Positions 14,854 to 44,731 of a DNA stretch of 64,000 nt are shown here, piece by piece. Each line of letters begins with the position of its first letter. The stretch's first letter is position 1. Source of the stretch: Janibacter alkaliphilus (GTDB lineage Bacteria > Actinomycetota > Actinomycetes > Actinomycetales > Dermatophilaceae); assembly GCF_013408565.1 (NCBI RefSeq), contig NZ_JACBZX010000001.1, positions 2,790,001 through 2,854,000 on the forward strand. Reading direction: 5' to 3'. Made by a program: the position numbers and the translations under genes. The notes beneath the pieces were generated by a model, which saw only the letters and a list, made by a program, of their open reading frames with translations, was not told the DNA's origin and did no database searches.

Positions 14854-14922
14854 CCTTTATCGGGTTACCCGATAAAGGCTCGCTTCCCGGAGAAGCCTTC
14901 TCGGGTGAGCGAGAGGTTCTCG
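14854..14922 (-). repeat. Three-hairpin dispersed element, copy 1
   Basis: Read on the minus strand this copy has hairpin A (CGAGA-ACC-TCTCG, 14910-14922), hairpin B (GAGAAG-n-CTTCTC, 14890-14902) and palindrome C (12-bp arms CCTTTATCGGGT with one central base, 14854-14878). It lies downstream, in the sense direction, of the gene ending at 14986 and upstream of uvrC. The same order of blocks occurs at 16997-17071 and 44656-44731. Confidence 0.85.
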
Positions 14923-14985
14923 ACGCTGAAGGGGTCGTGCGCCCCTGACGCGGTCAGGGGGTGCCGGACGTCTCGAGGTACGCGG

Positions 14986-15927
14986 TCAGCGTGCTGCCGG
15001 TGTGCGCTGCGAGGTGCGGACGGCCCGCCGGATCCGGGCGTGCAGCAGGCTCGGACGGGACAGGTCGGACCAGGTCACCCGGACGACCACGTACCCGAGA
15101 GCACGAAGGCGGTCTTCCCGCCGCTTCTCGCTGACCAGCGCCGGGACGCCGCCGTCGGCGTACTTCACCACCCCGTCGAACTCCAGCAGGACGGTGGTCC
15201 CCTCGATCTGCAGGTCCGCACGCGCCACGAGCGCCCCACCGTCGCAGATCTCCACCTGGGGCACCGTGGGGATGCCCCAGAAGGAGCACATCACCCGCAG
15301 CCGGCTCTCCCCGACGGACTCCGACCGGCCGTCACAGTGGTGCAGCATCGCGCACGCGGCCCCCGATCCGGCGATGCCGTCGACGCGCCCCACTTCTGCG
15401 GCGAGCTCCTCCGCGCTCAGCAGCCCGCTGTGCAGGGCCGCGTCGGCGGCGACCACGCCCGGCAGGACCCCGTCGTCGCTGGCGGTCTGGACCACGGCCG
15501 CCGCGACGGGGACCGCCGGGCCCACATCGGTCGTCACCGACGGCCGGCTGGTCGGCCGGATGGTGGCCAGCTGGGTCATCACCTGGCGGGGCACAGGACG
15601 CTCCAGCCGGGCCCGGCCCAGCTTGGCCGGGCCCACCGGCAGCCCGTGGGCCACCACCGCGGTGCGCCCGGCGAGGACCGCGTCGGGGTAGACGACGAGG
15701 AGCCCGCGCCCCAGCGGCCGGTGGCGCTGCTCCGCCTGCTCGGCCTCGGACGCCTCGGTATCGACGTGACTCGGCAGGGCGTAGACGCTCCGCCCCAGGT
15801 GCAGCAGCTCGCCGCGAGACACCGCGCGACGAAGGGCGTTGCGGTCCGCGCCGAGCCGACCGGCCTGCGTGGTGACGACGACGCCGCCCTGCGACGCCGC
15901 GAGCTCCTGGATCTCCGTGATGGCCAT
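14986..15927 (-). CDS. AbiEi-like winged-helix protein with DUF559 nuclease-like domain
   Basis: The 313-residue protein has an N-terminal AbiEi-type antitoxin-like winged helix (residues 1-50, with RAVSRGELLHLGRSVYALP) and a C-terminal DUF559-like domain of the Vsr/MutH fold (residues 205-300). Candidate catalytic residues are Glu207, Asp238, Glu249 and Asp251 in ARADLQIEGTTVLLEFDG, followed by EDRLRALGYVVVRVTWSDL. Such proteins are widespread orphans in actinobacteria with no established function. No AbiEii toxin gene is adjacent, so a toxin-antitoxin role is not supported here. It stands alone on the minus strand and is followed by element copy 1. Confidence 0.75.
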   Translation of the reverse strand: MAITEIQELAASQGGVVVTTQAGRLGADRNALRRAVSRGELLHLGRSVYALPSHVDTEASEAEQAEQRHRPLGRGLLVVYPDAVLAGRTAVVAHGLPVGPAKLGRARLERPVPRQVMTQLATIRPTSRPSVTTDVGPAVPVAAAVVQTASDDGVLPGVVAADAALHSGLLSAEELAAEVGRVDGIAGSGAACAMLHHCDGRSESVGESRLRVMCSFWGIPTVPQVEICDGGALVARADLQIEGTTVLLEFDGVVKYADGGVPALVSEKRREDRLRALGYVVVRVTWSDLSRPSLLHARIRRAVRTSQRTPAAR

Positions 15928-16121
15928 GTAGCCATCTGACCGGGAGCGGCGGGCCTGCGACAGTCACGCGCGTGTGCTGTGGATGCCGACGGCGGCGCCG
16001 CGCCCCCTGTGGGAGGGCCCACAAGCCACACCTGATCGAACGGGGAGGAAGGACGCCCGGTGGAGCGGTCGCGGGCGAGCGTGCGACGGTAGGCCGGTAC
16101 CCATACGAAAGGACCTCTCTC

Positions 16122-16964
16122 ATGGCTTCCTCCGCACCCGTCCCCGACCGCGCCGAGCGGGACGCCTTCTTCCCTTCGGACTCCTCGCTGGAGCAGTACG
16201 TGCCGCCGCAGGCCGGGATCGACGTCCCGGACCACGAGCAGGTGGCCTCCGGCCCGCGCCGGGTGCTGGTCATCGGCACCGACGAGCGCTACCTGCGCCT
16301 GGCGGACGGGCGGTACTTCTCGACCGGCAACCATCCGGTCGAGACCCTCGGACCGATCATGCACCTGCGGGCAGCGGGCTACGAGTTCGAGGTCGCGACC
16401 CCGTCCGGCGCCATGGTCAAGCTGGAGCACTGGGCGGTGCCGGCCGAGGACGAGGCGGTGAAGGCGGCCCTCGACGCGCTCATGCCGCAGCTGCGCGACC
16501 CGCGCCCGCTGGACGAGGTGGTCGCCGAGCTCGACCCTGCTCGCTACGCGGCAGTCTTCGTCCCCGGCGGGCATGGAGCGATGATCGGTCTGCCGACGAG
16601 TGCTGGTGTCGGAGCCGCCCTGCGCTGGGCGCTGGAGCACGACCGCCCGGTCATCACGCTGTGCCACGGCCCGGCCGCCCTGCTGGCTGCCACCGACGAC
16701 CAGGGGCGCTCTCTCTTCGCCGGCTACGAGGCGTGCGTCTTCCCGGACGCCCTGGACTCCGGAGCCAACATCGACCTCGGCTACCTGCCCGGCGCCATGT
16801 CCTGGCTGCTCGCCGAGCGCCTCGCGGAGCAGGGGGTCACGGTCGTCAACGACGACATGAGCGGCCAGGTGCACCGGGACCGGCTGCTCGTCACCGGCGA
16901 CAGCCCGCTGGCCGCGGACGCCCTCGGACGCCTCGCGGTCGAGACGCTGGCCGAGCTCCGGTGA
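16122..16964 (+). CDS. hchA: Glyoxalase III / protein deglycase Hsp31 (DJ-1/PfpI family)
   Basis: Hsp31-type proteins convert methylglyoxal to lactate without glutathione and act as stress chaperones in the cytosol. The 280-residue product has the DJ-1/PfpI fold, with the nucleophile Cys181 in ITLCHGPAALL, AVFVPGGHGAMIGLP just before it, and GYLPGAMSWLLAERL near the C-terminus, all typical of the HchA branch. The open frame runs upstream, but the ATG at 16122 has AAAGGA ahead and gives the family N-terminus. It is monocistronic and followed by element copy 2. Confidence 0.88.
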   Translation: MASSAPVPDRAERDAFFPSDSSLEQYVPPQAGIDVPDHEQVASGPRRVLVIGTDERYLRLADGRYFSTGNHPVETLGPIMHLRAAGYEFEVATPSGAMVKLEHWAVPAEDEAVKAALDALMPQLRDPRPLDEVVAELDPARYAAVFVPGGHGAMIGLPTSAGVGAALRWALEHDRPVITLCHGPAALLAATDDQGRSLFAGYEACVFPDALDSGANIDLGYLPGAMSWLLAERLAEQGVTVVNDDMSGQVHRDRLLVTGDSPLAADALGRLAVETLAELR

Positions 16965-16996
16965 GCGGCCGGAGGTAGCCGCTGGCCCGCTGGCTG

Positions 16997-17071
16997 CCGA
17001 GGAACGCTCGGTAACCCCAGAAGCCTTCTCCGGCGACCGAGCCTTTATCGGGTAACCCGATAAAGGCTCGG
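16997..17071 (+). repeat. Three-hairpin dispersed element, copy 2
   Basis: Hairpin A is CCGAG-5 nt-CTCGG (16997-17011), hairpin B is AGAAG-n-CTTCT, and palindrome C spans 17037-17071 with 17-bp perfect arms around one base. It lies 33 nt after the hchA stop in the sense direction, between hchA and the convergent Rieske gene, a position suited to a terminator. Confidence 0.88.
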
Positions 17072-17084
17072 GGGCGGGTGGGGG

Positions 17085-17543
17085 TCAGGTGACGACGAGC
17101 TCATCGCCGTCGAGGGTGACCTCACGGGTGGTCAGGCCGGTCTCGGCGGGGCCCTTGGTGACCTCGCCGGTGGCCGGGTCGAAGGTGCTGCCGTGGCAGG
17201 GGCAGACGATCGCGTCGCTGGTCACCTCGTCCACCGCGCAGCCCTGGTGCGGGCAGGCCGCGTCGAAGGCGGCGTACTCCCCCGCGCTCGGCTGGGTGAC
17301 GACCACCGAGCCGGAGACCGTGCCGCCACCCTCGGGCACCTCGCTGCTGGCCACCCGGACCTCCTCGCCCGAGCCGGCCGAGCCACCCGAGCCGGAGGAC
17401 GAGCCACCGCCGTCGTCGCTGCCGCCGCAGCCGGCGAGGATCAGCGCGCCGCCACCGACCGCGCCGACGCTCATCACCGCTCGGCGGGTGGTGCAGCCGC
17501 CGGTGCAGGCAGCGCCTGCGTCAACAGCACGACGTTCGTCCAT
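17085..17543 (-). CDS. Secreted Rieske (2Fe-2S) lipoprotein
   Basis: A 152-residue electron-transfer protein. The N-terminus has a twin-arginine motif (Arg20-Arg21) and hydrophobic stretch ending in the lipobox LAGC, with Cys39 as lipidation site, followed by a Gly/Ser linker (residues 40-60). The Rieske domain has CPHQGC at 97-102 and CPCHG at 114-118, giving ligands Cys97, His99, Cys114 and His117 and the disulfide pair Cys102-Cys116. It is much smaller than QcrA and has no respiratory genes nearby, so its redox partner is unknown. GGGAG precedes the ATG at 17543. A TAGCGT box at 17588-17593 (minus) could be its promoter. Confidence 0.9.
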   Translation of the reverse strand: MDERRAVDAGAACTGGCTTRRAVMSVGAVGGGALILAGCGGSDDGGGSSSGSGGSAGSGEEVRVASSEVPEGGGTVSGSVVVTQPSAGEYAAFDAACPHQGCAVDEVTSDAIVCPCHGSTFDPATGEVTKGPAETGLTTREVTLDGDELVVT

Positions 17544-17673
17544 GATCTCCCTCTCGGGTTGTGGGCAGCGACGGAACAGCATCGTCCACGCTAGCCGCCG
17601 ACGCTGTCCCCCGGCTGTCGGCGCGCTGTGGTGCTGCGCCTGCCGCGAGCCGCTCCGGCGACCCGGCCCGGCG

Positions 17674-20934
<3,261 letters not shown>

Positions 20935-20941
20935 CCGCACA

Positions 20942-20985
20942 ACTCTAGGCGGCACCCCCGACAGCGCCCAGCGCGCCTCTAGGCT
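20942..20985. promoter_or_regulatory. Divergent leaderless-type promoters of uvrA and the GH15 gene
   Basis: On the minus strand TAGAGT (20942-20947) ends 7 nt before the uvrA GTG. On the plus strand TAGGCT (20980-20985) ends 6 nt before the GH15 ATG at 20992. The two genes share a gap of only 57 bp, with no ribosome binding site on either side. No match to the actinobacterial SOS box TCGAAC-N4-GTTCGA was seen. Confidence 0.55.
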
Positions 20986-20991
20986 GGCCCG

Positions 20992-22860
20992 ATGACGACT
21001 CCGATCGAGGACTACGCGGTCATCGGCGACACCGAGACCGTCGCCCTGGTCAGCCGGGCCGGGTCGATCGAATGGCTCTGCCTGCCCCGCTTCGACTCTC
21101 CCTCCTGCTTCACCGCGCTGCTGGGCACCCCCGAGCACGGGCGCTGGCTGCTGACGCCCGTGGCCGAGGCGCGCACCACCCGGCGCTACCACGAGGGCAG
21201 CTTCGTCCTGGAGACCACGCACGAGACCGAGACCGGGGTGGTCCGGGTCACCGACCTCATGCCGCTCGGCGACGGCCGGGCCGACATCGTCCGCCGGGTC
21301 GAAGGGGTCTCCGGCAGCGTGGTGATGGACCACGAGTGGGTCGTCCGCTTCTCCTACGGCCGGATCACCCCCTGGGTCACCCGCGGATCCGGGCACGACG
21401 AGGACGCCGGCGAGGTGCTGACCGCGGTCGCCGGCCCGGACATGCTGGTGCTGCGCGGCGACCGGCTGCCCAGCGCCGAGGGCGACCACCACCGGGACCG
21501 GTTCACCGTGCACGAGGGCGAGCGGGTGGACCTCTCGCTGACCTGGACCGCCTCGTGGAAGCCGGTCCCGCCGCCGCTGGACGCCTCCTCCCGGATCGCC
21601 GCCACCGTCGCCCGCTCCGCCGAGTGGGCCGCCCGCTGCACCTACCAGGGGCGCTACCGCGAGCAGGTGGAGCGCTCGCTGCTGGTGCTGCGGCTGCTCA
21701 CCGACACCCGGCGCGGCGGGATCGTCGCAGCACCGACGACCAGCCTGCCGGAGCACTTCGGCGGGGAGCGGAACTGGGACTACCGCTACTGCTGGTTGCG
21801 CGACGCCTCGCTGACCCTGGAGTCGCTGCTGCGCTCGGGCTACGTCGGGCCGTCCCGGCTGTGGCGGGACTGGCTGGTCCGGGCCATCGCCGGCGACCCC
21901 GAGGACATGCAGATCATGTACGCCGTCGACGGGGGGCGGGAGCTGCCCGAGCGCGAGCTGGACCACCTGCCGGGCTACGCCGACAGCCGGCCGGTGCGGG
22001 TCGGCAACGGCGCCGTCGACCAGAAGCAGACCGACGTCCTCGGCGAGGTGATGATCGCCCTCGAGGACGCCCGTCGGCTGGGGCTGGAGGAGTCCCCGCA
22101 GTCCTGGGCGGTGCAGCGGGCGCTGGTGGACACCCTGGCCACCCACTGGGACGAGCCGGACAACGGGTTGTGGGAGATCCGCGGGCCGCTGCGCCACTTC
22201 ACGCACAGCCGGGTGATGGTCTGGGCCGCCTTCGACCGGGCCGTCCGGGCGGTCGAGGAGCACGGCTACCAGGGCGACGTCGAGCGCTGGCGCGAGCTGC
22301 GGGACGCGGTGCACGCGGAGGTGTGCGAGCGCGGCTGGGACGAGCGGCGGCAGACCTTCACCCAGCACTACGAGACCGAGGAGGTGGATGCCTCGCTGCT
22401 GCTCATCCCGCTCGTCGGCTTCCTGCCTCCCGACGACGCGCGGGTGCACGGCACCATCGCGGCGATCGAGCAGGACCTCATGCGTGGCGGCTTCCTGCTG
22501 CGCTACCGCACCGAGAGCGGCATCGACGGCCTCACCGGTGACGAGCACCCCTTCCTGGCGTGCTCGTGGTGGCTGGTCAGCGCCTGGGCGGCGATCGGCG
22601 AGGTGGCCAAGGCCGCGGAGCTCATGGACCGGCTGGTCGCCCTGCTCAACGACGTCGGTCTGGTCGCCGAGGAGTACGACCCCGAAGGGGACCGCCAGGC
22701 CGGCAACTTTCCGCAGGCCTTCTCCCACCTCACCCTCATCGGCGCGGCCTACGCCCTCGCCGAGGCCGAGGCCGAGGCCGAGGCCGAGGGCCGAGCCGAG
22801 CAGCAGCAGCAGAGCACCGCTGCCGCACCCACCCCCACCGCGAAGGAGAGCACGCGATGA
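20992..22860 (+). CDS. Glycoside hydrolase family 15 protein (glucoamylase/trehalase-like)
   Basis: A 622-residue cytosolic enzyme of the (alpha/alpha)6-barrel GH15 family, which hydrolyses alpha-glucosides such as trehalose or malto-oligosaccharides. The N-terminal domain begins [18 protein letters not shown] and [16 protein letters not shown]. The catalytic barrel has [13 protein letters not shown] near residue 262, [16 protein letters not shown] near residue 340, and [20 protein letters not shown] near the C-terminus. The last 35 residues form a low-complexity tail of Glu-Ala repeats and four Gln, encoded by a GAGGCC hexamer run near 22759-22788. The stop overlaps the next gene's ATG (ATGA). 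Exact substrate is not readable from sequence; trehalose is plausible from mycobacterial relatives. Confidence 0.88.
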
Positions 22861-23540
22861 GCCAGACCGCCCCGCAGGAGTACACCGGTGACGTCGCCCC
22901 GGGCGACCCGGCCCAGGTCCGTCGGCTGCGGCGGCTGACGATCCGCAAGATCGCCGTCGGCGAGATGTACAACAACGTCTACCTGCTGACCTGCACCGCG
23001 ACCGGCGAGCAGCTGCTCATCGACGCCGCTGCCGAGGCCGAGCGGGTGCTGGCCCTGATCGCCGAGGGCGGCGACGGCCTGGCCCACCTGGTGACCACCC
23101 ACCGTCACCACGACCACGTCGGGGCCCTGGCCGAGGTCGCCCGAGAGACCGGCGCCGAGACCTACGCCGGCGAGGACGACGCCGCGGCTCTGCCGGAGCT
23201 GCCTGACCACTCGCTGCGGCACGGGGACACCGTCACCGTCGGCGAGGTCGACCTGCAGGTGCTGCACGTGCGCGGGCACACCCCCGGCTCGGTGGTCCTG
23301 GTGCACACCGAGCCCGACGGCAGCGCCCACGTCTTCACCGGGGACACCCTCTTCCCCGGCGGCGTCGGCGCCACCGACCGCTACGACTACCAGGACTTCG
23401 GCACCCTCTTCACCGACGTCACCGAGCGGATCTTCGCCACCCTCGACGACCGTGCCTGGGTCTACCCGGGCCACGGCGGCGACACCACGCTCGGCGCGGA
23501 GCGGCCGCACCTGGAGCAGTGGCGAGAGCGCGGGTGGTGA
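22857..23540 (+). CDS. MBL-fold metallo-hydrolase
   Basis: A 227-residue cytosolic metallo-beta-lactamase-fold protein, similar to the glyoxalase II branch. The metal motif is THRHHDHVG near residue 81; later metal ligands are His in [15 protein letters not shown], Asp in [11 protein letters not shown] and His in [12 protein letters not shown]. The GTTL/F region [14 protein letters not shown] is common in such hydrolases. The ATG at 22857 overlaps the GH15 stop and the stop overlaps the exporter start (GTGA), so three unlike genes are coupled in one operon. Substrate unknown. Confidence 0.85.
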
Positions 23541-24433
23541 CCCGGCGCCTCTCCGCCTCCGCGGTCCCCGCCCCGCTGCTCGTCCTCGGCGGGGTCGTCT
23601 CGGTGCAGTTCGGCGGGGCGCTCGCCGCTATCCTCGTTCCGGAGATCGGTGCCGGACCGTCGGTGCTGCTGCGCCTGCTCGTCGCGGCCGGGCTGATGCT
23701 CGCGCTGACCCGTCCTCGGGTGCGCGGCTACACCCGTGAGCAGTGGCTCACCGTGGGCGCCTTCGGCCTCGCGCTGGGGCTGATGAACTGGTCCTTCTAC
23801 GCCTCGCTGGCGCACCTGCCGATCGGGGTCGCGGTCACCGTGGAGTTCATCGGGCCGCTGACCCTGGCCACGGTGCTCTCCCGCCGGCCGCGCGACCTGC
23901 TGGCGGTGGCGGCTGCCGCCCTCGGGGTGGTGCTCATCTCCGAGGCGACCGAGCTGCCGCTGGCCGAGCTGGACTGGACCGGGCTGGCGCTGGCGCTGGC
24001 GGCCGGCGTGTGCTGGGCCGCGTACATCATCCTCTCCGGGCGCACCGGTGCCGCCTTCCCGCAGCTGGACGGGCTCACCTTCGCCCTGGTCGTCGCATCC
24101 GCGGTGGTGCTGCCGGCCGGGCTCGTCGGCTGGGACCAGGTGGGGCCGCGCCATCTCGCCTTCGGCGCGGGGGTGGCGGTGCTCAGCTCGGTGCTGCCGT
24201 ACTCCCTGGAGCTGCTGGCGCTGCGGCGGCTCAGCGCCCAGGTCTTCGGGATCCTGCTCAGCCTGGAGCCGGCGGTGGCGGCGCTGGCCGGTCTCGTCGT
24301 GCTGGGCCAGCGACTGGGCCCCGCCCAGCTCGTCGGCATGGCCCTCGTGGTCTCGGCGAGCGTCGTCGTGCTCGGCCTCGGCCGCCGAGGAAGAGACGTC
24401 ACCCCCGACTCCTTGGCGGAGACCGGGGGCTGA
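23537..24433 (+). CDS. EamA/RhtA-family transporter
   Basis: A 298-residue inner-membrane protein of the drug/metabolite transporter superfamily with about ten hydrophobic segments in two repeats. The second repeat includes LDWTGLALALAAGVCWAAYI and ILLSLEPAVAALAGLVVLGQ-like segments, and the pattern is closest to RhtA-type threonine/homoserine exporters. The frame is open from 23519, but GTG at 23537 overlaps the MBL gene stop by 4 nt and leaves a short charged N-terminus. Substrate is inferred only from family and is uncertain. A strong hairpin follows. Confidence 0.82.
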   Translation: MTRRLSASAVPAPLLVLGGVVSVQFGGALAAILVPEIGAGPSVLLRLLVAAGLMLALTRPRVRGYTREQWLTVGAFGLALGLMNWSFYASLAHLPIGVAVTVEFIGPLTLATVLSRRPRDLLAVAAAALGVVLISEATELPLAELDWTGLALALAAGVCWAAYIILSGRTGAAFPQLDGLTFALVVASAVVLPAGLVGWDQVGPRHLAFGAGVAVLSSVLPYSLELLALRRLSAQVFGILLSLEPAVAALAGLVVLGQRLGPAQLVGMALVVSASVVVLGLGRRGRDVTPDSLAETGG

Positions 24434-24464
24434 CGACGGGCTGACGACCTGGGAGACGCTGGTC

Positions 24465-24501
24465 GTCGGGTCGGCCCACGCTGCGGCGGGGCCGACCCGA
24501 C
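24465..24501. terminator. Bidirectional terminator hairpin
   Basis: Perfect 13-bp arms (GTCGGGTCGGCCC and its complement) with an 11-nt loop sit between convergent EamA and terC genes, 31 nt after one stop and 7 nt after the other. Confidence 0.7.
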
Positions 24502-24508
24502 CGAGAGG

Positions 24509-25678: not shown

Positions 25679-25687
25679 GTGCGGTTA

Positions 25688-25820
25688 CCTTCCGGACGAC
25701 GGGTGATCCTGTCCGGAGGTCTCTCCCACCCAGGGGCCGGCACCCCGGGCCCGACGACGACCGTGCAGGTCACCGGCGTGCCGTGATGGCGAGGATGCCG
25801 CGCGGGGATACTCCCCTCCG
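25688..25820 (-). promoter_or_regulatory. yybP-ykoY manganese riboswitch with ribosome-binding-site switch
   Basis: The minus-strand leader of terC carries the two conserved loops of this class: GGGGAGTA (25809-25816) and GAGACC near 25718-25723. Stem P1 pairs CGGAGG (25815-25820) with CCTCCG (25714-25719). Just downstream, TCCGGAC (25711-25717) can instead pair with GTCCGGA (25691-25697). That right arm overlaps GGAAGG (25688-25693), the terC ribosome binding site. P1 and the second hairpin share bases TCCG, so they exclude each other: manganese binding would form P1 and free the site. The class and its metal are known; the switch mechanism here is inferred from pairing. Confidence 0.88.
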
Positions 25821-25869
25821 CTGACGAGGATTGTCGCAGATGGTGACCCCGACCACGAACCCAGCGCGC

Positions 25870-28036: not shown

Positions 28037-28109
28037 CCCCAACTCCCTAGGCTCCTGGATGTGCCTAGCCTGCAGGCTGAGCGTCTGCGGTCTGCCTAGG
28101 CAGTTGGGG
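28037..28109 (-). terminator. Large nested inverted repeat after coaE
   Basis: Outer arms CCCCAACTCCCTAGGC (28037-28052) and GCCTAGGCAGTTGGGG (28094-28109) pair over 16 bp with one mismatch. The 41-nt loop holds a perfect 12-bp palindrome AGCCTGCAGGCT (28067-28078). It begins 2 nt after the coaE stop, so a terminator is likely; the nested structure is larger than needed for that. Confidence 0.65.
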
Positions 28110-34196: not shown

Positions 34197-34349
34197 GAGA
34201 GACCCTCCTTGGTCCAGGAACTTACCGGAGGGTAGCACCGCAACCCATCGATGACCGGCGTGCACGAGAGTAAGCGACGTGTCGTGCGCCACGTGGCAGG
34301 ACACGACGATCCGCACCTCGCCTGCGATACCCCCTCCCAGGGGCCGCTA

Positions 34350-35515: not shown

Positions 35516-36558
35516 CGTTGCCCCCTCCAGGTGGTGGCTCCGTGGTCGGTGAAGGTGAACTCCGAGACCTGCAGCCCGAGGCCGATGAGGGCGTCGGCGA
35601 CCTGGTGACGCCGTTCGAACTCGCAGATGAAGATCATGTGGCCGCCGCCACCGGCTCCGGTGACCTTGCCCCCGAGGGCCCCGGTACGCATGGCCAGGTC
35701 CACGGCGTCGAGGATCAGCGGGGTGGCGATCCGGCTGGACATCCGCTGCTTCTCGGCCCAGGCCTGCCCGAGCAGCCGGCCGACCTCGTCGACCTTGCCG
35801 CGCAGCAGCGCCACCCGCATGGCGTCGGCGAGGTCGCGCTGCGCCCGCAGGCCGGCCACCGCGTCCTGCTGGCCGGTCTCGTAGCGGCTGACCTGGTCCT
35901 CGATGATGTGGTCGCTGACCCGGGTCCGCCCGGTGTAGGCCAGCAGCATGTTGTGCTCCAGCTCGTGCACGGTGTCCGCGCGCACCCGCAGCGGCGAGAC
36001 GACGACCTCGCCGTGGCCGCGGAACTCCATGAAGTTGAACCCGCCGAAGGCGGCCGCGTACTGGTCCTGGTAGCCGCCGGGGATGCCCAGGTCCTCGCGC
36101 TCGAGGTGGTAGGCGAGCTCGGCCATCTCGTGCGGGTCCAGGTCGATGCCGCAGTGCCGGGCGACGAGGTCGATCACCGCCACCATGACGGCGCTGGAGG
36201 AGCCCAGCCCGGAGCCGGGCGGGGCGTTGGTGTGCAGGAAGAGGTCGAAGCCGTCGGAGGGCATCGCCCCGCGCAGCGTCATGATCCGGTCGATCGCCGC
36301 CTTGGGCAGGTCCAGCGTGCCGTCCAGGGTGGCCCGCTGGCCGACCTCGTAGTCGATCGCCTGCCCGTAGTCGTGCGACTCCACGGTGATCCGCCCGTCG
36401 GTCCGCGGACGAAGGGTGGCGTAGGCGTAGCTGCTGATCGTGGCGCTGAGCACCGCCCCGCCCTCACGCTCCGGGAAGGGCGAGACGTCGGTCCCGCCGC
36501 CGGCGAAGCTCACCCGCAGCGGCACCCGCGCGCGCAGCACCGGTCGCTCCGGTCGCAT
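35512..36558 (-). CDS. hddA: D-glycero-alpha-D-manno-heptose-7-phosphate kinase-like GHMP kinase
   Basis: A 348-residue GHMP-superfamily kinase resembling HddA, which phosphorylates heptose-7-P at C1 on the way to GDP-heptose. It starts RARVPLRVSFAGGGTDVSPF, has the ATP motif APPGSGLGSSSAVMVA near residue 113, and ends with the third GHMP motif GGKVTGAGGGGHMIFIC near residue 306. ATG at 36558 is preceded by GGAAGGGG; the open frame begins 66 bases earlier. It is first in hddA-gmhA-gmhB. A fucose- or other sugar-kinase role is possible, but the neighbours favour heptose. Confidence 0.88.
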   Translation of the reverse strand: MRPERPVLRARVPLRVSFAGGGTDVSPFPEREGGAVLSATISSYAYATLRPRTDGRITVESHDYGQAIDYEVGQRATLDGTLDLPKAAIDRIMTLRGAMPSDGFDLFLHTNAPPGSGLGSSSAVMVAVIDLVARHCGIDLDPHEMAELAYHLEREDLGIPGGYQDQYAAAFGGFNFMEFRGHGEVVVSPLRVRADTVHELEHNMLLAYTGRTRVSDHIIEDQVSRYETGQQDAVAGLRAQRDLADAMRVALLRGKVDEVGRLLGQAWAEKQRMSSRIATPLILDAVDLAMRTGALGGKVTGAGGGGHMIFICEFERRHQVADALIGLGLQVSEFTFTDHGATTWRGQR

Positions 36559-36625
36559 CAGACCCCTTCCGATGGGTGACAATCGTCCCTGTCCAGCAGT
36601 TACCCGATGGTAGGCGAGGAGCACC

Positions 36626-37864
36626 GTGCCGTCCCCGACGACCGCTCAGCCTCGCACTGTGACGCTCGACGCGTTGCGGGGGGTGGCCGCCTGGCTCGTG
36701 CTGCTCTCGCACGTGGGCTTCTGGACCGGGGAGACCTCCGGGGGCGCCGTGGGCAGCCTGGCCGCCCGCGGCGACGTCGGGGTGGCGATCTTCTTCGCGC
36801 TCTCCGCGGCGCTGCTGTCCGCCCCCTTCGTCCGTCGCGGTCTGGGCGAGCCGGCCCCCTTCTCCCTCGCCCGGTACGCCCGTCGCCGCCTGGCCCGCAT
36901 CCTGCCGGCCTACTACCTGGCGCTGGCCGGGGTGCTGCTGACCGCGGTGGCGCTCGGCGACCCGGGCGGGGTGCTCAGCCTGCCGACCGTGCTGGTGCAC
37001 CTGGTGCTGGGGCAGGGCGTGACCGGGGTGACCTTCCAGTCCTTCACCCAGACCTGGAGCCTGACCACCGAGGCGGTCTTCTACCTCGTGCTGCCGCTGG
37101 GTGCGGCGCTGGCCGTGCCGTGGGTGCTGGCGGCCGGTCCGGGAGCCGCGGACGAGAGCGCGCGACGTCGTGCCCGCGGCCGTCGGATGATCCTCGGCTG
37201 CGCCGTGCTCGGCCTGCTCGGGCTGCCGGTCCAGGGCCTGGCCGCGGTCTTCACCGGGGAGGGCGCGTCCTGGTGGGCCGGGGCGCTGGCCACCTCGGTG
37301 CCCGGGCACGCGCTGTGGTTCGCCGTCGGGATCGCCGTCACCGTGCTGCTCGAGGCCGAGCGCGCCGGGACCCGGCTGTGGGGCGGTCGCGCCGGTGAGC
37401 TGGTCGAGGTGCTGCGCACCTCGCCCGGGACCCTGGTGCTGCTGGCGCTGGTGGTCTGGGCGGTCGCCGCCACCCCGCTGGCCGGGCCGCGCGACCTCAC
37501 CGACCCGGCGGCCGGCGCGCTGGTCGCCCGGGAGGTGCTCTACGGCGTGATCGCGCTGGCGCTGCTGCTCGCCGCGACCAGCCGGGGACTGCCGGAACGG
37601 GTGGCCGCCTCACGGCTGGCCGGCCCGAGCCGGTGGCTGGGCGACACCTCGTACGGCGTCTTCCTGTGGCACGTGCTGGTGCTCCAGGTGGTGTACGCGG
37701 CGCTGGACCTCCGGCTCTTCTACGTGCCCTTCGTGCCGATGCTCGTCCTCGTCACCGTGCTCTCGCTGGGCATCGCCCACCTGTCGTGGGTGCTCGTGGA
37801 ACGGCGGTTCATCGCCTGGGCCCACCGGGACGCAGCAGCGCGGCCAGCAGCAGCCCGACGGTGA
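36626..37864 (+). CDS. Acyltransferase 3 family membrane protein
   Basis: A 412-residue integral membrane O-acyltransferase (OafA type) with about ten membrane segments. The N-terminus LDALRGVAAWLVLLSHVGFW carries the family's catalytic His, and RRLARILPAYYLAL and WSLTTEAVFYLVLP are conserved cytoplasmic and catalytic segments. It likely acylates a surface sugar. GTG at 36626 has GAGGAG ahead. The last 56 bases overlap, antisense, the end of the DUF3367 gene at 37809-41675. A homologue in the mycobacterial aftD region (Rv0228, from memory) supports a shared pathway. Confidence 0.88.
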   Translation: MPSPTTAQPRTVTLDALRGVAAWLVLLSHVGFWTGETSGGAVGSLAARGDVGVAIFFALSAALLSAPFVRRGLGEPAPFSLARYARRRLARILPAYYLALAGVLLTAVALGDPGGVLSLPTVLVHLVLGQGVTGVTFQSFTQTWSLTTEAVFYLVLPLGAALAVPWVLAAGPGAADESARRRARGRRMILGCAVLGLLGLPVQGLAAVFTGEGASWWAGALATSVPGHALWFAVGIAVTVLLEAERAGTRLWGGRAGELVEVLRTSPGTLVLLALVVWAVAATPLAGPRDLTDPAAGALVAREVLYGVIALALLLAATSRGLPERVAASRLAGPSRWLGDTSYGVFLWHVLVLQVVYAALDLRLFYVPFVPMLVLVTVLSLGIAHLSWVLVERRFIAWAHRDAAARPAAARR

Positions 37865-40800
37865 CCGCGCCGAGCCCCTGACCGACCCAGGCGCCGGCCG
37901 AGTACCGCTCGGCGACGCCGAGCGCGGCGATGGCGAGGGCCGAGAGCAGCAGCGTGCCCAGGACGGCGAGCGGCCGCGCGCGGGAGGGCACGAGGGCACC
38001 GAGCGGGGCGAGCAGGGCGCCGAGCGGGCCGGCGACGAGACCCCCGAGGACGAGCGCGGTCAGGCCGGTCGGCAGCCGCCCGGCCGTCCTGGAACGCACC
38101 TCCGTGGCGGTGCCCGGCGGGTCTCCCCGGGGCGGGGCTGTCCCGTCGGCGCGCGGCACCGCGGGCACCGACGGGCGCCGGGCGCGGGCGAGCCGCTCGC
38201 CGGCCGCCCAGAGCAGCAGCAGGGCCACGAGCAGCCCGCCGACGAGCAGGGCGGTGCGGTGGGCGCCGTTGGGCGCGAAGTCGACGGTGACCTGCTCGGC
38301 TCCCCCGGCCGGGAGCCGGAAGCCCTGACGCCAGCCGTCGACGGTGACCGGGTCCAGCCGCCGCCCGTCGGCGGTGCGTGCCTGCCACCCGGCGTTGGCC
38401 CCCTGGGCCAGGGTCAGGTAGCCCGCCTCCCCCGGCTCGACGTCGATACGCCACCGGCCGGGGTGCTCACGCTCGGCAGAGGTGACCCCGCGGGCCGGCG
38501 CCGCCGAGGCGCTCGACGCGGTCGCGCCGCCGCCCACACCCGACGGGCCGTCCGCGGCGGCCTCTCCCTCGTCCAGGCCCGCCGCGCCGGCCTCTCCCGC
38601 GTCCTCCGCCGAGGTTACCCGGACGCGCTCCGGCAGCAGGACGTCGGTCGCCGTGGTCAGCACGTCGGTGCGGCCGCCGTCGTGCGTGGTCTGACCGCAC
38701 GAGCGGAGCGGCACCGGACGGCCGGAGAGCAGGTCGCCGCGGGAGACCGACAGCGCGAGGCCGACCCGCTCCTGGCCGATCCGGACCGAGCCGGCCTGCC
38801 CGCACCCCAGCTCCACGGTCCGGTCGTCGCTGCTCTGGTCGTCACGTCCCTGGTTGGCGCTGCCCGCCAGCCCGTCGACGCTCACCTCGGGAGCCCGCCA
38901 GGACTCCCCGCCACGGACGAAGCTCAGCCGCAGGGTCGAGGTCTGCTGCACCGGGACCTGCAGCCGGGTGGTGGACCCGCGCACCCAGGTGCCCTGGTCG
39001 GTCTGGATCCGAACCGGCCCGGCCGCGCGGTCCAGGGAGATGGTCGAGACGCGACGCTGCTCCCCCAGGTCGATCTCGAGGGTGGGGGCGGCCTCGTCGG
39101 GAGCGGGTTCCCAGCGGGTCGCGGGGTCGCCGTCGACGGCTGCGCCTGGCCGGTGCTGCAGCCGCTCGTGCGCGGGGCGGTCGGTCGCGGCGCGGGTGCT
39201 GCTGCGCAGCGACCAGGGACCGTCGAGCAGGTCCTCGGCGGCCAGGCTGGGCCGGGGCCGCGCCCAGGCGCGCACGTCCAGGGCGCCGCTGGGCGGGGTG
39301 GCGGTGCGGCGCAGGTCGGCGCCCTCCTCCCCGAGGCTCGGGTCGGCGGCCGCGCGGGGGTCGCGGGTGATGAGTACCGGGCCGTCGCCGGAGGGCAGCG
39401 CGAGCACCGGGCCGTCGTCGTCGGTGCCCGGCGCCACGCGGGTGGTGCGGCCGGTGCTCTCGCCGCCCGGCGGCAGGTCGCGGGTGCCGACCTCGACGGG
39501 ACGGGGGTCGTCGGCCGGGAGCGTCGGCGAGCGCCCGTCCTGCGGTGGCAGCCCGGAGGACAGCGCCTGCCAGCGCAGGGAGTCGGTGGTGATCGCGGCA
39601 ACGTCCGAGCCGTCGCCGCCGAGGCCGTCCGCGACCGGGTCGTCGGCGGCGACGTCGCCGGTGAGCAGCATCGCCTGCTCCGGGGTCAGCAGGCCGGTCT
39701 CGGCGAGATCGGTCCACACCTCCGGCGCCCCGGCGACCCGCTGGGCCGTCGCGACCGGGTAGAGGCTGGCGGCGTCGTCGGCGTCGGCATCCGGGGCCGT
39801 CACCGACCACACGACGACCCGGTGCTCGCCCCGGCCGGTCGCGTCGGTGCGCTCGATCCCCGGCGAGGCGTCCAGCGTGGCCGCAGCAGCGTCCGGGTCG
39901 AGGGTGCCGACGTCGGCGCTGATCCCCCAGCGCACGACGACCCGGCGCACCCCCAGGCGCTCCAGCTGGTCGGCCAGCCGGGGCGAACCCACCCCGGCCG
40001 AGGCGAGCAGATCGATCCCGTCGAGGACCCGGGTGGCCCCGGGGTGCCCGAGCGGGGCCGACCCGCGGCCGAGCACCGGTGACTCGGCCAGGGCGGCCAG
40101 CGGCTCGTCCACCGTGCGGCCCCAGGTGTAGTCGGCGGTCCGGGCGCCGGGCAGCAGCAGCGTGGCTCCGCCCTCACGCTGGGCCGCGCGGTCGACCGTC
40201 TGGGCCGTCGTGGCCCACTCGGCGGGCACCTCGTCGTAGGCCCAGGCGTCGCCGCCGCGCCCCTGCCACAGCGGCAGGGTGGCCGCGACCAGCGCCACCG
40301 CGGTGCCGGCGACGAGCAGCCGGCCCGTGGTGAGGCGTGCCCCCACGGCGAACCGGCGCCCCGTCCACCCTCCCGGTGCGGTGGGGACCCCCTTCGCCAC
40401 CCCGCCCCGGCGTCCAGCCACCCCGGCGAGCAGCAGGCCCACCCCGAGCGCCACCGGCAGGCGGACCAGCGGGTCGGCCTTGTGCACGTTGCGCAGCGCG
40501 GCCAGCGGCCCGTCCAGCAGGTCCTGGACCGGGCCGGCCAGCGGGCCCGAGCCCGAGCCCTCGCGGCCCACCGCCATGACGAGCACGCCCAGCAGCACCC
40601 CGGTCAGCGCCCACCGGGTCAGGTGTCGTCGCTCCGCCGACGCGCGCTCGCCCGGTCCGTGCCGGCGCGCCCTGACCAGGCCGGCGAGACCGAGCCCGGC
40701 CACCGCCATGGTGCCGATGATCGCCAGCACCGACTGGGCCAGCACCCAGCCGGTCTGCCAGGTGGGGTGGTCGCCGGCGGTGAGGATGTAGGCGACCCAG

Positions 40801-41675
40801 TGCTGCGCCCCGCGCAGGACGTTGGGCAGCGAGGCCACCGCCGTGGTCGTCGAGGCCACCTCGATGAAGTCGAGGAAGGGGTAGGAGTAGCGGCCGAGGA
40901 CGAGTAGCGGGCCGAGCCACCAGGCGCTGCCGAGCAGCGCGCCCAGGCTCCACCAGGCCAGCGCGCGGCCCTTGCGGCGGCCCCGGGGGGCCAGCAGGAT
41001 CCAGCCGGCGGCCGGGACCAGCGCGACCAGGGAGACGGTGGCGTTGACCCCGCCGAGGCAGGCGGCCAGCAGCCCGGTGGTCACGGCGGCCCGGCGTCTG
41101 TCGGACGCCGCGACGCCCTCGCGCACGGCCCGCTCGGCCGCCAGCACCAGCCACGGCAGCAGCGCGTAGGGCCACACCTCGACGGAGATCTCCGAGAGCA
41201 CGGTGAGCACCCGCGGCGAGAGCGCGTAGACGACCCCGGCCAGCAGCGCCGTGCCGGTGCCGAGGCCGGCGATGCGACGGGCCAGCCGCTCGGTGCCGAG
41301 GAGAGCGACGACGAGGATCAGCGCCCACCAGGCCCGCTGGATGACCCACGGGTCGAGGCCGATCACCTCGCCGAGCCAGTAGAAGGGACCCATCGGCCAC
41401 AGGTAGCCGTAGGCCTGGTTCTGCAGCTCGCCGACCCCGGTGTGGTCGTTCCAGGCCCACAGGGCCCGGGCGAGGTATCGGCCCGGGGAGAGCAGCAGGT
41501 CCACCTTCGTGTCCGGCTGGATCATCCCGGGGGCGACGAAGAACGGCAGCACCCCCACGGCGAGCATCGTCACCAGCCGCTGCAGCCCGGCCCGCCGTCG
41601 GCGGACGTCGGTCGCGGCGGGGGCGCCCGGGAGGGACCTCGCGGTGGTCGCCGAGGCAGCGGCACCGTCGGTCAT
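37809..41675 (-). CDS. DUF3367 GT-C glycosyltransferase, AftD-like
   Basis: A 1288-residue membrane protein of the AftD type. Mycobacterial AftD adds alpha-1,3-arabinofuranose in arabinogalactan and lipoarabinomannan; whether the sugar here is arabinose is unknown. The N-terminal half is a polytopic GT-C domain (PGMIQPDTKVDLLLSPGRYL in the first loop, with candidate catalytic Asp). The C-terminal half is extracytoplasmic and includes a discoidin/CBM-like module (PATRWEPAPDEAAPTLEIDL) and ends with four or so membrane segments. ATG at 41675 overlaps the methyltransferase stop (ATGA). A second, larger paralogue is at 48704-53224. Confidence 0.88.
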   Translation of the reverse strand: MTDGAAASATTARSLPGAPAATDVRRRRAGLQRLVTMLAVGVLPFFVAPGMIQPDTKVDLLLSPGRYLARALWAWNDHTGVGELQNQAYGYLWPMGPFYWLGEVIGLDPWVIQRAWWALILVVALLGTERLARRIAGLGTGTALLAGVVYALSPRVLTVLSEISVEVWPYALLPWLVLAAERAVREGVAASDRRRAAVTTGLLAACLGGVNATVSLVALVPAAGWILLAPRGRRKGRALAWWSLGALLGSAWWLGPLLVLGRYSYPFLDFIEVASTTTAVASLPNVLRGAQHWVAYILTAGDHPTWQTGWVLAQSVLAIIGTMAVAGLGLAGLVRARRHGPGERASAERRHLTRWALTGVLLGVLVMAVGREGSGSGPLAGPVQDLLDGPLAALRNVHKADPLVRLPVALGVGLLLAGVAGRRGGVAKGVPTAPGGWTGRRFAVGARLTTGRLLVAGTAVALVAATLPLWQGRGGDAWAYDEVPAEWATTAQTVDRAAQREGGATLLLPGARTADYTWGRTVDEPLAALAESPVLGRGSAPLGHPGATRVLDGIDLLASAGVGSPRLADQLERLGVRRVVVRWGISADVGTLDPDAAAATLDASPGIERTDATGRGEHRVVVWSVTAPDADADDAASLYPVATAQRVAGAPEVWTDLAETGLLTPEQAMLLTGDVAADDPVADGLGGDGSDVAAITTDSLRWQALSSGLPPQDGRSPTLPADDPRPVEVGTRDLPPGGESTGRTTRVAPGTDDDGPVLALPSGDGPVLITRDPRAAADPSLGEEGADLRRTATPPSGALDVRAWARPRPSLAAEDLLDGPWSLRSSTRAATDRPAHERLQHRPGAAVDGDPATRWEPAPDEAAPTLEIDLGEQRRVSTISLDRAAGPVRIQTDQGTWVRGSTTRLQVPVQQTSTLRLSFVRGGESWRAPEVSVDGLAGSANQGRDDQSSDDRTVELGCGQAGSVRIGQERVGLALSVSRGDLLSGRPVPLRSCGQTTHDGGRTDVLTTATDVLLPERVRVTSAEDAGEAGAAGLDEGEAAADGPSGVGGGATASSASAAPARGVTSAEREHPGRWRIDVEPGEAGYLTLAQGANAGWQARTADGRRLDPVTVDGWRQGFRLPAGGAEQVTVDFAPNGAHRTALLVGGLLVALLLLWAAGERLARARRPSVPAVPRADGTAPPRGDPPGTATEVRSRTAGRLPTGLTALVLGGLVAGPLGALLAPLGALVPSRARPLAVLGTLLLSALAIAALGVAERYSAGAWVGQGLGAVTVGLLLAALLRPGGPRR

Positions 41676-42406
41676 CGACGACGCAGCACGAGCAGCAGGT
41701 TCCAGGTGAGCACCTCGCGCACGCCGGGCACCCGCAGCAGGTGGGCGAAGCCGTCGGGGAGGTAACGCGGGCGGGCGACGAGCACCTCGACGTCCGTGCG
41801 CTGCCGGGCCCAGGCCAGGCCCTGGGCGACCGAGACCCGGTAGAGGGTCTCGTCCACCCGGTTCTTCGGCGGGTGCCCGTGGCGGCGGGTGTAGCGGCGG
41901 ACCGCCCGTCGGCCACCCAGCCAGTGCCACGGCGAGGTCTCGTGCCCGCCCCACGGCGAGAGCCAGTTGGTGTAGGAGAGGAAGACCAGCCCACCCGGAC
42001 GGGTCACCCGGACCAGCTCGTCGGCCACCCGCTCCGGGTCGGGCACGTGCTCCCAGACGTTGCTGGAGAAGGCGATGTCGACGCTGCCGTCGGCCACCGG
42101 CAGGTCGGCGGCGTCGCCGACCACCCCGGCGCCGACCAACGACGGGACCTCACGGTCGTGGTCCACCGGGATGTAGCGCGCCCCGGCGTCGCGGAAGGCG
42201 CCGGCGAACTCCCGGGGGCCGGCCCCCACGTCCAGCACGGTGAGACCGGACAGGTCGGCGTGCTCGCGCAGCAGCTCCAGGGAGTCCGTGGCCAGCTCGG
42301 AGTAGAACCGCTCGGGCTCGGTCTGCTCCACCAGGAACGCCCGGAAGAGCCGCACCGAGCGGCGCAGCCCGCGCGGGCGTGCGGTGCTCGGGCTGGTGTC
42401 GGTCAC
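41672..42406 (-). CDS. SAM-dependent methyltransferase of the aftD neighbourhood
   Basis: A 244-residue class I methyltransferase. Motif I is LTVLDVGAGPREFAGAF, followed by YIPVDHDREVP, DAADLPVADGSVDIAFSSNVWEHVPDPE and RVTRPGGLVFLSYTNW. The C-terminal part has YTRRHGHPPKNRVDETLYRVSVAQGLAWA. Similar proteins sit beside aftD in mycobacteria (Rv0224c, from memory), where they are linked to envelope synthesis. It is coupled to the DUF3367 gene by an ATGA overlap and follows the next methyltransferase by 7 nt. Target is unknown; a lipid carrier or sugar is plausible. Confidence 0.82.
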   Translation of the reverse strand: MTDTSPSTARPRGLRRSVRLFRAFLVEQTEPERFYSELATDSLELLREHADLSGLTVLDVGAGPREFAGAFRDAGARYIPVDHDREVPSLVGAGVVGDAADLPVADGSVDIAFSSNVWEHVPDPERVADELVRVTRPGGLVFLSYTNWLSPWGGHETSPWHWLGGRRAVRRYTRRHGHPPKNRVDETLYRVSVAQGLAWARQRTDVEVLVARPRYLPDGFAHLLRVPGVREVLTWNLLLVLRRR

Positions 42407-42413
42407 GGGGCCA

Positions 42414-43280
42414 TCATGGCCGACGGGCCTCGAGCTGCAGCGTCGGCCGGCTGCGTGGCGCGACGAGCCGCTGGGCCAGGACCAGGGGCAGGCTGGCCAC
42501 GGCTGCCGCCATGGTGGTCCGTGAGGCGAGCACCCCGGCCCGGCGCTCGGCCGGCCGCAGCGCCCGGACCAGGCTCGCCGCGTCGACGCTCAGGCTGTCC
42601 AGCGGCAGCCGGGTGACCTGCACGTCGACGAGGCCCGCGGCCGTCGCGGCGCGCGCCAGGGAGTCGGCGGTGAAGAAGCGGCGGTGGGTGGGGTCCTCGA
42701 GCATCCACCAGGCCGACCCGTAGCGCTCGACACCGGTGGAGTCGCCGGCGGGCGTGAGCATCACCACCCGGCCACCCGGGCGGGCCAGCCGCCGGGCACC
42801 GGCCAGCGCGGCGGCCGGGTCCTCGACGTGCTCGAGGACGTGGATGCCGACGACGAGGTCGTGCTGCCCGGCCTCGGTCAGCGTCTCCACGGTGCCGCGG
42901 TGCAGGTCGCCCGCTGCCCGCACCCGCGGGTCGACGTCGAGCAGCAGCTGGTCCGGGTCGACCCCGGCGACCCGGGCGCCGTCGTCGAGGAAGCGGCGCA
43001 GCATCTCTCCGGTGCCGTAGCCGATCTCGAAGACCGAGCCGGGCCGGCCTCCGCGGACCAGCGAGCGGTAGGTCAGGTCCAGGCGCACCCGGTCCAGCCG
43101 CGGCTCGCCGCCGTAGGCGAGGTCGCGGTGGTGCGCCGGCGCCCGGTCGAGGTCGCGGAGCAGGTGCCCGCAGGTGGCGCAGCGCTCCAGCACCCCGCCG
43201 TGGCGAAGGGCGATGCCCCGCACCTCTCCCCCGCACACCTCGCAGCTGCGAGGAACCTCACCTACCCCTGGGTAACTCAC
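42414..43280 (-). CDS. Methyltransferase with N-terminal zinc ribbon
   Basis: A 288-residue protein with four cysteines in two CxxC knuckles near residues 13 and 35 (CEVCGGE and CATCGH), then a class I methyltransferase domain: VFEIGYGTGEMLRRFLDDG, VAGVDPDQLLLDV, VGIHVLEHVEDPAAAL, RPGGRVVMLTPAG. Proteins of this build methylate sugar or lipid-linked substrates. GTG at 43280 has no Shine-Dalgarno but lies 6 nt after TAGGGT, a leaderless arrangement inside a palindromic operator-like site. It leads the minus-strand run into the AftD-like gene. Confidence 0.82.
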   Translation of the reverse strand: MSYPGVGEVPRSCEVCGGEVRGIALRHGGVLERCATCGHLLRDLDRAPAHHRDLAYGGEPRLDRVRLDLTYRSLVRGGRPGSVFEIGYGTGEMLRRFLDDGARVAGVDPDQLLLDVDPRVRAAGDLHRGTVETLTEAGQHDLVVGIHVLEHVEDPAAALAGARRLARPGGRVVMLTPAGDSTGVERYGSAWWMLEDPTHRRFFTADSLARAATAAGLVDVQVTRLPLDSLSVDAASLVRALRPAERRAGVLASRTTMAAAVASLPLVLAQRLVAPRSRPTLQLEARRP

Positions 43281-43290
43281 GGGGTTACCC
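43270..43290. promoter_or_regulatory. Inverted repeat over the start of the zinc-ribbon methyltransferase
   Basis: GGGTAAC (43270-43276) and GTTACCC (43284-43290) form 7-bp arms 7 nt apart. They span the GTG start and touch the TAGGGT box (43287-43292) in the divergent gap. A second hairpin, GGCCACC-ACGA-GGTGGCC (43304-43321), sits in the leader of the glycosyltransferase gene. Both could act as operators; function is inferred from position. Confidence 0.5.
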
Positions 43291-43337
43291 TAGCCGTCGA
43301 CCCGGCCACCACGAGGTGGCCAGTGAAGGAGCAGGGG

Positions 43338-44597
43338 ATGAGCGACGACGCCGGGGGCGGACGTGCCCCGCTGCGCGTGCTCTACCTCTCCTGGCGGGAC
43401 CGGGAGAACCCGGAGGCCGGTGGCGCCGAGACCTTCACCGAGCGCACCAGCGAGGTGCTCACCGGGCTGGGCCACCAGGTCACGCTCTTCACCGCCCGCT
43501 TCCCGGGAGGCGCTGCACGCACCCGGCACGGTGACGTGGACGTGGTGCGTCGCGGCGGCAAGTTCACCGTCTACCTGCACGGGCTGGCCCACCTGCTGCG
43601 GCACCGTCGGGACTACGACGTCGTGCTCGACGTGCAGAACGGCGTCCCCTTCTGGAGCCCGCTGGTGGCCGGTCGGCTCCCGGTGATCAACATCGTCCAC
43701 CACGTGCACCGGGACCAGTGGTCGGCGGTCTTCGGTCCGTCGGTCGCCCGGCTCGGCTGGTTCCTGGAGTCGCGGCTGGCGCCGCGGGTCTACCGGGGCA
43801 GCCGGTACGTGACGGTCTCGCGCTCGACCCGCGCCGAGCTCGAGGAGCTGGGGGTCGACCCTGGCCGGGTGGACCTCGTCTACTCCGGCAACGACCGGCC
43901 CGTCGACCTGGACCGCTACGCCGAGCTGGAGCGGACCGAGCGGCCGACGATCCTCTTCCTCGGGCGGCTGGTCCCGCACAAGCACGTCGAGCAGGCCGTC
44001 GACATCCTCGCCGACCGGGCGGACACCCACCCGGACCTCGAGCTGCACATCGTCGGCGGCGGCTACTGGGAGAGCACCATCGCCGCGCACGCCGCACGTC
44101 GCGGGGTGAGCGACCGGGTGCACCTGCACGGCTTCGTCGACGAGCCGGTCAAGCACGAGCTGCTGGCCCGCTCGTGGGTGGTCGTCATGCCCTCGCACAA
44201 GGAGGGCTGGGGGCTGACCATCGTCGAGGCAGGGCTGCACGGCACGCCGGCGGTGGCCTACTCCTTCGCCGGCGGTCCGAGCGAGTCGATCGTGCACGGC
44301 CGGACCGGGCTGCTGGCCGACAGCCGGGCCGAGTTCGAGGAGCAGGTGCTCTCGCTGCTGGACGACGCCGAGCAGCGGCGCGACCTGGGACGGACGGCGC
44401 GGATCTACGCGACCTCGTTCGACTGGGTGCGGGCCGGTCACCGGCTGGAGACGGTGATCCTGTCGGTGCTGGGGCGCGGGGCGCGCTACCGGGACGACAC
44501 GGTCGACCTGGACGCGCTCATCGCCAGCTCGCCGCGGGAGCGGCGTGGTCCAGGCGGTGGGCAGCCGCGGCGGCGCGCGACCAGCTCGGTGGCCTGA
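43338..44597 (+). CDS. Glycosyltransferase family 4 protein
   Basis: A 419-residue GT-B glycosyltransferase. The N-terminal acceptor domain starts LRVLYLSWRDRENPEAGGAE, with NIVHHVHRDQWSAVFGP further on. The C-terminal donor domain has ILFLGRLVPHKHVEQAVDIL near residue 211 and the E-x7-E motif in SHKEGWGLTIVEAGLHGTP near residue 287. The C-terminal 30 residues are Arg-rich. It is cytosolic or membrane-peripheral and probably works on a lipid-linked glycan. AAGGAG precedes ATG 43338 inside a much longer open frame. The mycobacterial aftD region has a similar gene (Rv0225, from memory). Element copy 3 follows. Confidence 0.88.
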   Translation: MSDDAGGGRAPLRVLYLSWRDRENPEAGGAETFTERTSEVLTGLGHQVTLFTARFPGGAARTRHGDVDVVRRGGKFTVYLHGLAHLLRHRRDYDVVLDVQNGVPFWSPLVAGRLPVINIVHHVHRDQWSAVFGPSVARLGWFLESRLAPRVYRGSRYVTVSRSTRAELEELGVDPGRVDLVYSGNDRPVDLDRYAELERTERPTILFLGRLVPHKHVEQAVDILADRADTHPDLELHIVGGGYWESTIAAHAARRGVSDRVHLHGFVDEPVKHELLARSWVVVMPSHKEGWGLTIVEAGLHGTPAVAYSFAGGPSESIVHGRTGLLADSRAEFEEQVLSLLDDAEQRRDLGRTARIYATSFDWVRAGHRLETVILSVLGRGARYRDDTVDLDALIASSPRERRGPGGGQPRRRATSSVA

Positions 44598-44655
44598 GCC
44601 TCACTCAGCGGTATCAGAGCGGGCGATCCATGCGCGCTCGGCGCGCAACGGCGTG

Positions 44656-44731
44656 CCGAGAACCTCTCGGTCACGCGAGAAGCCTTCCCCATGAACCGAG
44701 CCTTTATCGGGTAACCCGATAAAGGCTCGGT
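44656..44731 (+). repeat. Three-hairpin dispersed element, copy 3
   Basis: Hairpin A is CCGAGA-ACC-TCTCGG (44656-44670). The hairpin B block is degenerate (GAAG-n-CTTC). Palindrome C at 44695-44731 has 18-bp perfect arms around one base, the longest of the three copies. It begins 58 nt after the GT stop in the sense direction and ends 10 nt before the stop of the convergent small membrane protein gene. Confidence 0.88.

Follow-up and report, generated by a model that had tools for sequence, protein, structure and literature searches.

The closest described counterparts of the element considered here are the REPtrons, in which a gene for a REP (repetitive extragenic palindrome)-associated tyrosine transposase (RAYT, or TnpA-REP) lies between two inverted palindromes (PMC2817692; PMC8266576). 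The RAYT signature, as laid out in PMC2817692, comprises inverted bracketing of the gene, dispersed extragenic palindromes, a match between enzyme and repeat, repeat numbers that follow the enzyme, and fast evolution of the enzyme at a fixed site. In the pertinent portions of PMC2817692, PMC8266576, and PMC3733652, REP-type repeats are associated with no enzymes other than RAYTs. PMC3733652 deals with the GTAG and CGTC REP superfamilies and describes the CGTC REPs as having no dedicated transposase; a word search of its accessible text returns no actinobacterial names. Here, we analyze a 64,000-nucleotide stretch of the actinobacterium Janibacter alkaliphilus (contig NZ_JACBZX010000001.1, positions 2,790,001 to 2,854,000; hereafter the window), in which a first-pass annotation had recognized three copies of a dispersed three-hairpin element (hairpins A and B followed by palindrome C). 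The element is probably a dispersed palindrome, REP-like and non-autonomous, and an AbiEi-winged-helix/Vsr-like nuclease encoded beside the first copy would be its cognate enzyme. As judged from sequence comparisons, a full unit has the nuclease gene in the middle and an end on either side in inverted orientation, with palindrome C (core TATCGGGTNACCCGATA) on the outside of each end and hairpin B on the inside. Six lines of evidence point to this assignment, namely the bracketing of the gene, palindromes specific to nuclease lineages, their dispersal in the same genome, the matching of dispersed copies to the resident ends, the covariation of hairpin B, and the association of copy number with the presence of the gene.

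The three copies lie where they had been placed and align without gaps in a common order of blocks, viz., copy 1 at 14853..14922 on the minus strand (C core 14858-14874; 90.0 bits with the covariance model described below), copy 2 at 16998..17067 on the plus strand (C core 17046-17062; 78.6 bits), and copy 3 at 44657..44726, also on the plus strand (C core 44705-44721; 83.0 bits), the first two being further identified by the core pattern and the third by gene calls. Copy 1 is directly downstream of the nuclease gene (14986..15927, minus strand) and in sense with it. Copy 2 is inverted relative to copy 1, and the two therefore bracket the nuclease gene together with a DJ-1/PfpI-family gene (16122..16964, plus strand; Pfam PF01965) that separates the nuclease gene from copy 2, with palindrome C facing outward; copy 3 is a dispersed copy with convergent genes on either side. 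The pairing of hairpins A and B is imperfect in many copies, and copy 2 has CCGAGGAACGCTCGG for A. Likewise, palindrome C is AT-rich in a relative sense only, its 30 nt having 53% GC against 73.5% for the window. Across the gap-free alignment of copies from the J. alkaliphilus genome, the C core hardly varies. No Rfam 15 family matches above its gathering score within the window.

The 313-residue nuclease combines an AbiEi-type winged-helix part (residues 1-199; Pfam AbiEi_4) with a Vsr/I-Bth0305I-like domain (about residues 200-308; Foldseek and VIA-align matches), the latter displaying a restriction-endonuclease-like fold of the Vsr type; the AlphaFold model has a predicted local distance difference test score (pLDDT) of 93.9. 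The protein is 51% identical to some Nostocoides and Phycicoccus proteins and 40-44% identical to other Janibacter ones. NCBIfam offers no useful match, and the three matches of Pfam DUF559 in the J. alkaliphilus genome do not include the window gene; an alignment of the nuclease is a better probe than DUF559. Pfam models recovered in 17 family members are AbiEi_4 (14), MTES_1575 (11; treated in PMC3710099), DUF559 (4), and AbiEi_1 (1), with Y1_Tnp in none.

The genome search by covariance model that the first-pass annotation had proposed reveals a family much larger than three copies. With up to two mismatches, the core TATCGGGTWACCCGATA occurs at 66 sites in the 3.32-Mb genome and its reversed control at none, which excludes chance; BLAST with copy 3 finds at least 40 places, and a covariance model built from 38 copies gives 63 rows at 60 bits or more, leaving 61 places once two overlapping opposite-strand pairs are merged. 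With genes called from codon usage, after training on the window, 60 of these 61 copies are intergenic and one overlaps a called gene. The earlier suggestion of a repeat resembling miniature inverted-repeat transposable elements (MITEs) is supported in that the element is a dispersed repeat of a MITE- or REP-like kind. The intergenic copies fall in 28 convergent, 24 tandem (the genes being sense to the element in 10 and antisense in 14), and eight divergent gaps. Convergent gaps are enriched for copies (28/60), given that just seven of the 47 gene junctions in the window are convergent (33 tandem, 7 divergent), or two of the 18 with gaps above 80 bp. At least one gene 3' end adjoins 52 of the 60 copies, a proportion not above that of the window junctions (40/47). 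The idea that every copy follows a gene in sense holds for the three window copies but not genome-wide, where the upstream neighbor is sense for 38 intergenic copies and antisense for 22; a 3' element of sense genes is supported in part only. With respect to stop codons, the tightest relation is not to the sense upstream gene but to an antisense downstream neighbor, present in 42 of the 60 cases, whose stop codon lies a median of 17 bp beyond the element. Two types of right end diverge from alignment column 70: GGGnGnCGGGTGnGG continues in 36 of the 61 copies, and GCTCGG, extending palindrome C, is found in 24. Some places have a mirrored form A-B-C-B'-A' (e.g., genome positions 1509426/1509469).

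The nuclease search covered 39 genomes, and one top-scoring gene, which we call clade 1, is present in 12 of the 16 Janibacter genomes, that of J. alkaliphilus included. All 12 clade-1 genes, 11 of them from other genomes of the genus, have the core on both sides (up to two mismatches). Core-to-core distances are 1135-1151 bp in eight cases and 1284, 1479, 1929, and 2188 bp in the remaining four; the widest is the window, with its DJ-1/PfpI gene inside, and the 1929-bp bracket similarly holds a methyltransferase gene (locus L071 685-1419, genome G004), both of which may be passengers. Most ends have the arrangement AAGAGAAAC - hairpin B - TTTATCGGGTNACCCGATAA - GGGGCRGGTGRGG, C being on the outer side. 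Eleven of the genes occupy one site, flanked by msrB(SelR)-like and chlorite-dismutase-like genes; that of the window adjoins uvrC. At the shared site the nuclease averages 65% identity to the protein of genome G002, as against 85% and 89% for the two neighbors, and is the lower in 10/10 loci. Among 78 loci outside clade 1, a subset of the family genes of other genomes, the core is on both sides in one (L097) and on one side only in two. L097 belongs to another genus (genome G022), and its nuclease is bracketed by the same core, of which that genome has 21 occurrences. Within Janibacter, core counts (up to one mismatch) range from 10 to 66 in the 12 genomes with the gene and from 2 to 9 in the four without it, two of which are incomplete assemblies (Mann-Whitney p=0.002). 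Taken with G022, each of the 13 genomes with at least 10 cores thus holds a core-bracketed gene.

Bracketing extends across the wider nuclease family. From 163 family matches in the 39 genomes, 90, mostly the better-scoring ones and drawn from 31 genomes, were assessed by comparing 600-bp flanks, the left one being aligned to the right one after reverse complementation. An inverted-repeat score of at least 30 is attained by 64 of the 90 loci, compared to 29 of 5142 mismatched between-genus pairs and 20 of 600 spans drawn at random from the window; for a score of at least 40 the respective values are 44/90, 16/5142, and 1/600. Clustering at 55% identity yields 45 clusters, 34 of which have a bracketed member, and 51 of 63 arms exceed 95% of nearby windows of sequence in self-complementarity. 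A further set, overlapping the first in some loci, was taken from named genomes: of 80 relatives retained out of 122, 75 were assessed, with L167, L180, L203, L217, and L212 left out on account of contig ends. Here, 54 of the 75 loci reach a score of 40, against 2 of 2250 mismatched pairs, including 20/20 from Nocardioides, 7/7 from Janibacter, and 2/9 from Rhodococcus; none of the single Humibacillus, Terracoccus, and Serinicoccus loci and one locus from a metagenome-assembled genome does so.

Different nuclease lineages have different palindromes, and most of those searched for are dispersed as well. The J. alkaliphilus genome (G000) codes for three further family members, all bracketed (scores 50, 69, and 99), and its four palindromes are mutually dissimilar. 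The one that belongs to the nuclease at 154911 (L120) has 149+135 sites with up to two mismatches (control 0), and the arm of the gene at 1529530 (L119) yields 38 rows, its own pair included. Arms from genome G023, assigned to Kytococcus through a match to locus L207, and from Nocardioides sp. Root682 give eight rows and seven places, respectively, inclusive of the pair. Overall, five of the six arms or cores searched, from three genomes, show dispersal in the same genome, the sixth, that of the gene at 3122343 (L118), having no further copy within the 243 kb compared. The 154911 palindrome additionally forms tandem arrays with a period of ~31 bp and up to roughly 17 units (G000 154676-154823, 1072133-1072649, and other clusters). 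Within the window, 28040-28087 weakly matches the palindromic arm of L119 (77% over 48 nt), a second repeat family in this stretch.

The dispersed copies also resemble the ends of the nuclease resident in their own genome. From 10 gene-bearing Janibacter genomes, we took 42 dispersed copies among the matches listed for the G000 model and compared them with the ends of 11 nuclease loci; four dispersed copies from two gene-free genomes were left out. The ends of the same genome have a mean rank of 2.38 out of 11, against 5.65 (standard deviation [sd] 0.88) for permuted labels, and none of 5000 permutations is as low. In the 22 Janibacter ends, stem B has 55 two-sided compensated cells versus 20.3 (sd 3.3) after shuffling (0/500), and a covariation score of 0.338 versus at most 0.172 when the stem is slid; in the dispersed copies there are 77 compensated cells versus 28.0 (sd 3.9; 0/1000). 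Such compensated counts can be inflated by relatedness, which the slid controls preserve. In the relatives, then, the structure of hairpin B is conserved and its sequence varies by lineage. Separately, one dispersed copy occurs in both G003 and G005 (L258, L272) with 67 identical nt, perhaps an old common insertion that could be used for dating.

These features parallel the REPtrons as described: an enzyme gene between two inverted palindromes (12/12 clade-1 and 64/90 family loci), copies that are dispersed and mostly extragenic, both for the core and for the further lineages, an enzyme-repeat match with copy number following the enzyme, an enzyme that evolves faster than its neighbors at a shared site, and several systems per genome. 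The enzyme itself is different. RAYTs are HUH/Y1 tyrosine transposases (PF01797), whereas the Janibacter protein is a fusion of AbiEi and Vsr-like nuclease modules; Y1_Tnp is found in none of the 39 genomes (controls match in 5/14), and mobilization by a RAYT/IS200 enzyme is accordingly rejected. The Janibacter-type ends further differ from REP elements in having two palindromes. As with the GTAG and CGTC REPs (PMC3733652), these are short palindromic repeats often located between convergent genes, but neither tag is present when the consensus for 40 copies from G000 and 22 ends from Janibacter is inspected by eye on both strands, and, unlike them, a candidate enzyme is at hand. The direct target-site duplication of classical insertion sequences and MITEs is not seen in the 61 copies, the best offset sharing a 3-mer in nine of them (2.8 expected). 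As for the protein modules, I-Bth0305I and the Vsr endonucleases (3r3p, 1cw0, 1vsr) differ from the Janibacter nuclease, which has an AbiEi-like N-terminal part and a gene bracketed by palindromes that are also found without it; the AbiEi antitoxin of AbiE systems (6y8q; PADLOC AbiEi models), in turn, differs in that here a nuclease domain is fused, and an AbiEii toxin is not among the neighbors scanned (UvrC and DJ-1/PfpI in the window; SelR and chlorite dismutase in G002). The open-licence full-text literature, as far as it is covered (no bioRxiv and few subscription journals), provides no link of AbiEi, DUF559, or MTES_1575 proteins to palindromic repeats. Given the RAYT-type signature, the unrelated enzyme, and the lack of Y1_Tnp in the 39 genomes, we conclude that the system would work like a REPtron, yet is not a RAYT system.

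Several observations weigh against this interpretation. Neither insertion events nor empty sites or target duplications were observed, and no empty-site comparison with relatives was made; both the nuclease activity and the binding to the ends are predictions. At the thresholds used, 26/90 family loci (score of at least 30) and 21/75 named loci (score below 40), among them 7/9 from Rhodococcus, are unbracketed, and the window bracket itself, spanning 2.2 kb, scores only 15 and does not pass with 600-bp flanks. Four Janibacter genomes have their 2-9 cores without a clade-1 gene; the ends of the same genome rank first for just 23 of the 42 dispersed copies, ties included, or 18 strictly; and the 3122343 arm matches its own pair only within the 243 kb compared. 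Finally, the expectation that base changes in the stems are compensated fails in the J. alkaliphilus genome: in 38 of the first 40 copies (the two mirrored ones were set aside), neither stems A and C nor a longer hairpin D has compensatory changes in excess of shuffled controls. The first-pass annotation had named such a lack of compensation as refuting a terminator or 3' element; in the relatives the picture is reversed, hairpin B covarying. Hairpin D, formed by the 3' arm of A and the 5' flank of C, was rejected for the same reason, though 73% of its cells are paired.

Under the REPtron-like model, we propose that the nuclease would recognize the ends, with hairpin B perhaps read in cruciform or single-stranded form and palindrome C bound by the winged helix, and would nick or cut there. 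Repair could then copy single ends into new intergenic sites, with copies persisting where the harm is small, often in convergent gaps.

Three rivals carry lower weight. The best of them, which we still regard as improbable, casts the protein as a selfish homing-type endonuclease that cuts its insertion sites, with the ends marking or protecting occupied sites and the gene-free copies being decayed remnants; however, nearly all of the 61 places are single ends rather than gapped inverted pairs, and homing would require homologous flanks, which the scattered sites presumably lack. Slightly less probable again is that an AbiEi-type regulator controls its own gene via the flanking palindromes, the dispersed copies being a regulon or decoys and the nuclease domain serving some other end. 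The AbiEi-like N-terminal part and the near invariance of the C core in the J. alkaliphilus genome are consistent with such an operator, but only 8/60 copies are in divergent gaps, where promoters would be, the gene is bracketed on both sides with C outward, and compensated changes maintain an inner hairpin that a duplex operator would not need. Least probable of all is that the copies serve the host as terminators, RNA-stability elements, or boundary elements and are linked to the nuclease only incidentally, which would fit the intergenic and convergent placement but not the mixed orientation to the upstream gene, the copies in divergent gaps, or the lack of a T-tract, and would leave unexplained why one gene family is bracketed by many different palindromes. 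For the same mixed orientation, and with no T-tract after the hairpins in the copies listed, an intrinsic terminator as the main identity was rejected.

The REPtron-like reading, with the nuclease between inverted copies, points to an unrecognized route by which bacterial genomes gain such repeats. On balance, though with less assurance than for the Janibacter element itself, we favor the view that REPtrons have evolved independently a second time, as a class widespread in Actinobacteria in which each Vsr-like/AbiEi nuclease lineage creates and maintains its own palindromes, with several populations per genome. If so, REP-like repeats would have arisen convergently from a restriction-fold nuclease, an unrelated family with the REPtron signature indicating convergent domestication, and repeats free of RAYTs would gain a candidate mobilizer. 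The AbiEi_4/MTES_1575/DUF559 proteins, common in Actinobacteria but without an assigned function, would likewise acquire a testable role, and the spread of such repeats would become a question for binding and cutting assays, for which there are many natural enzyme-palindrome pairs.

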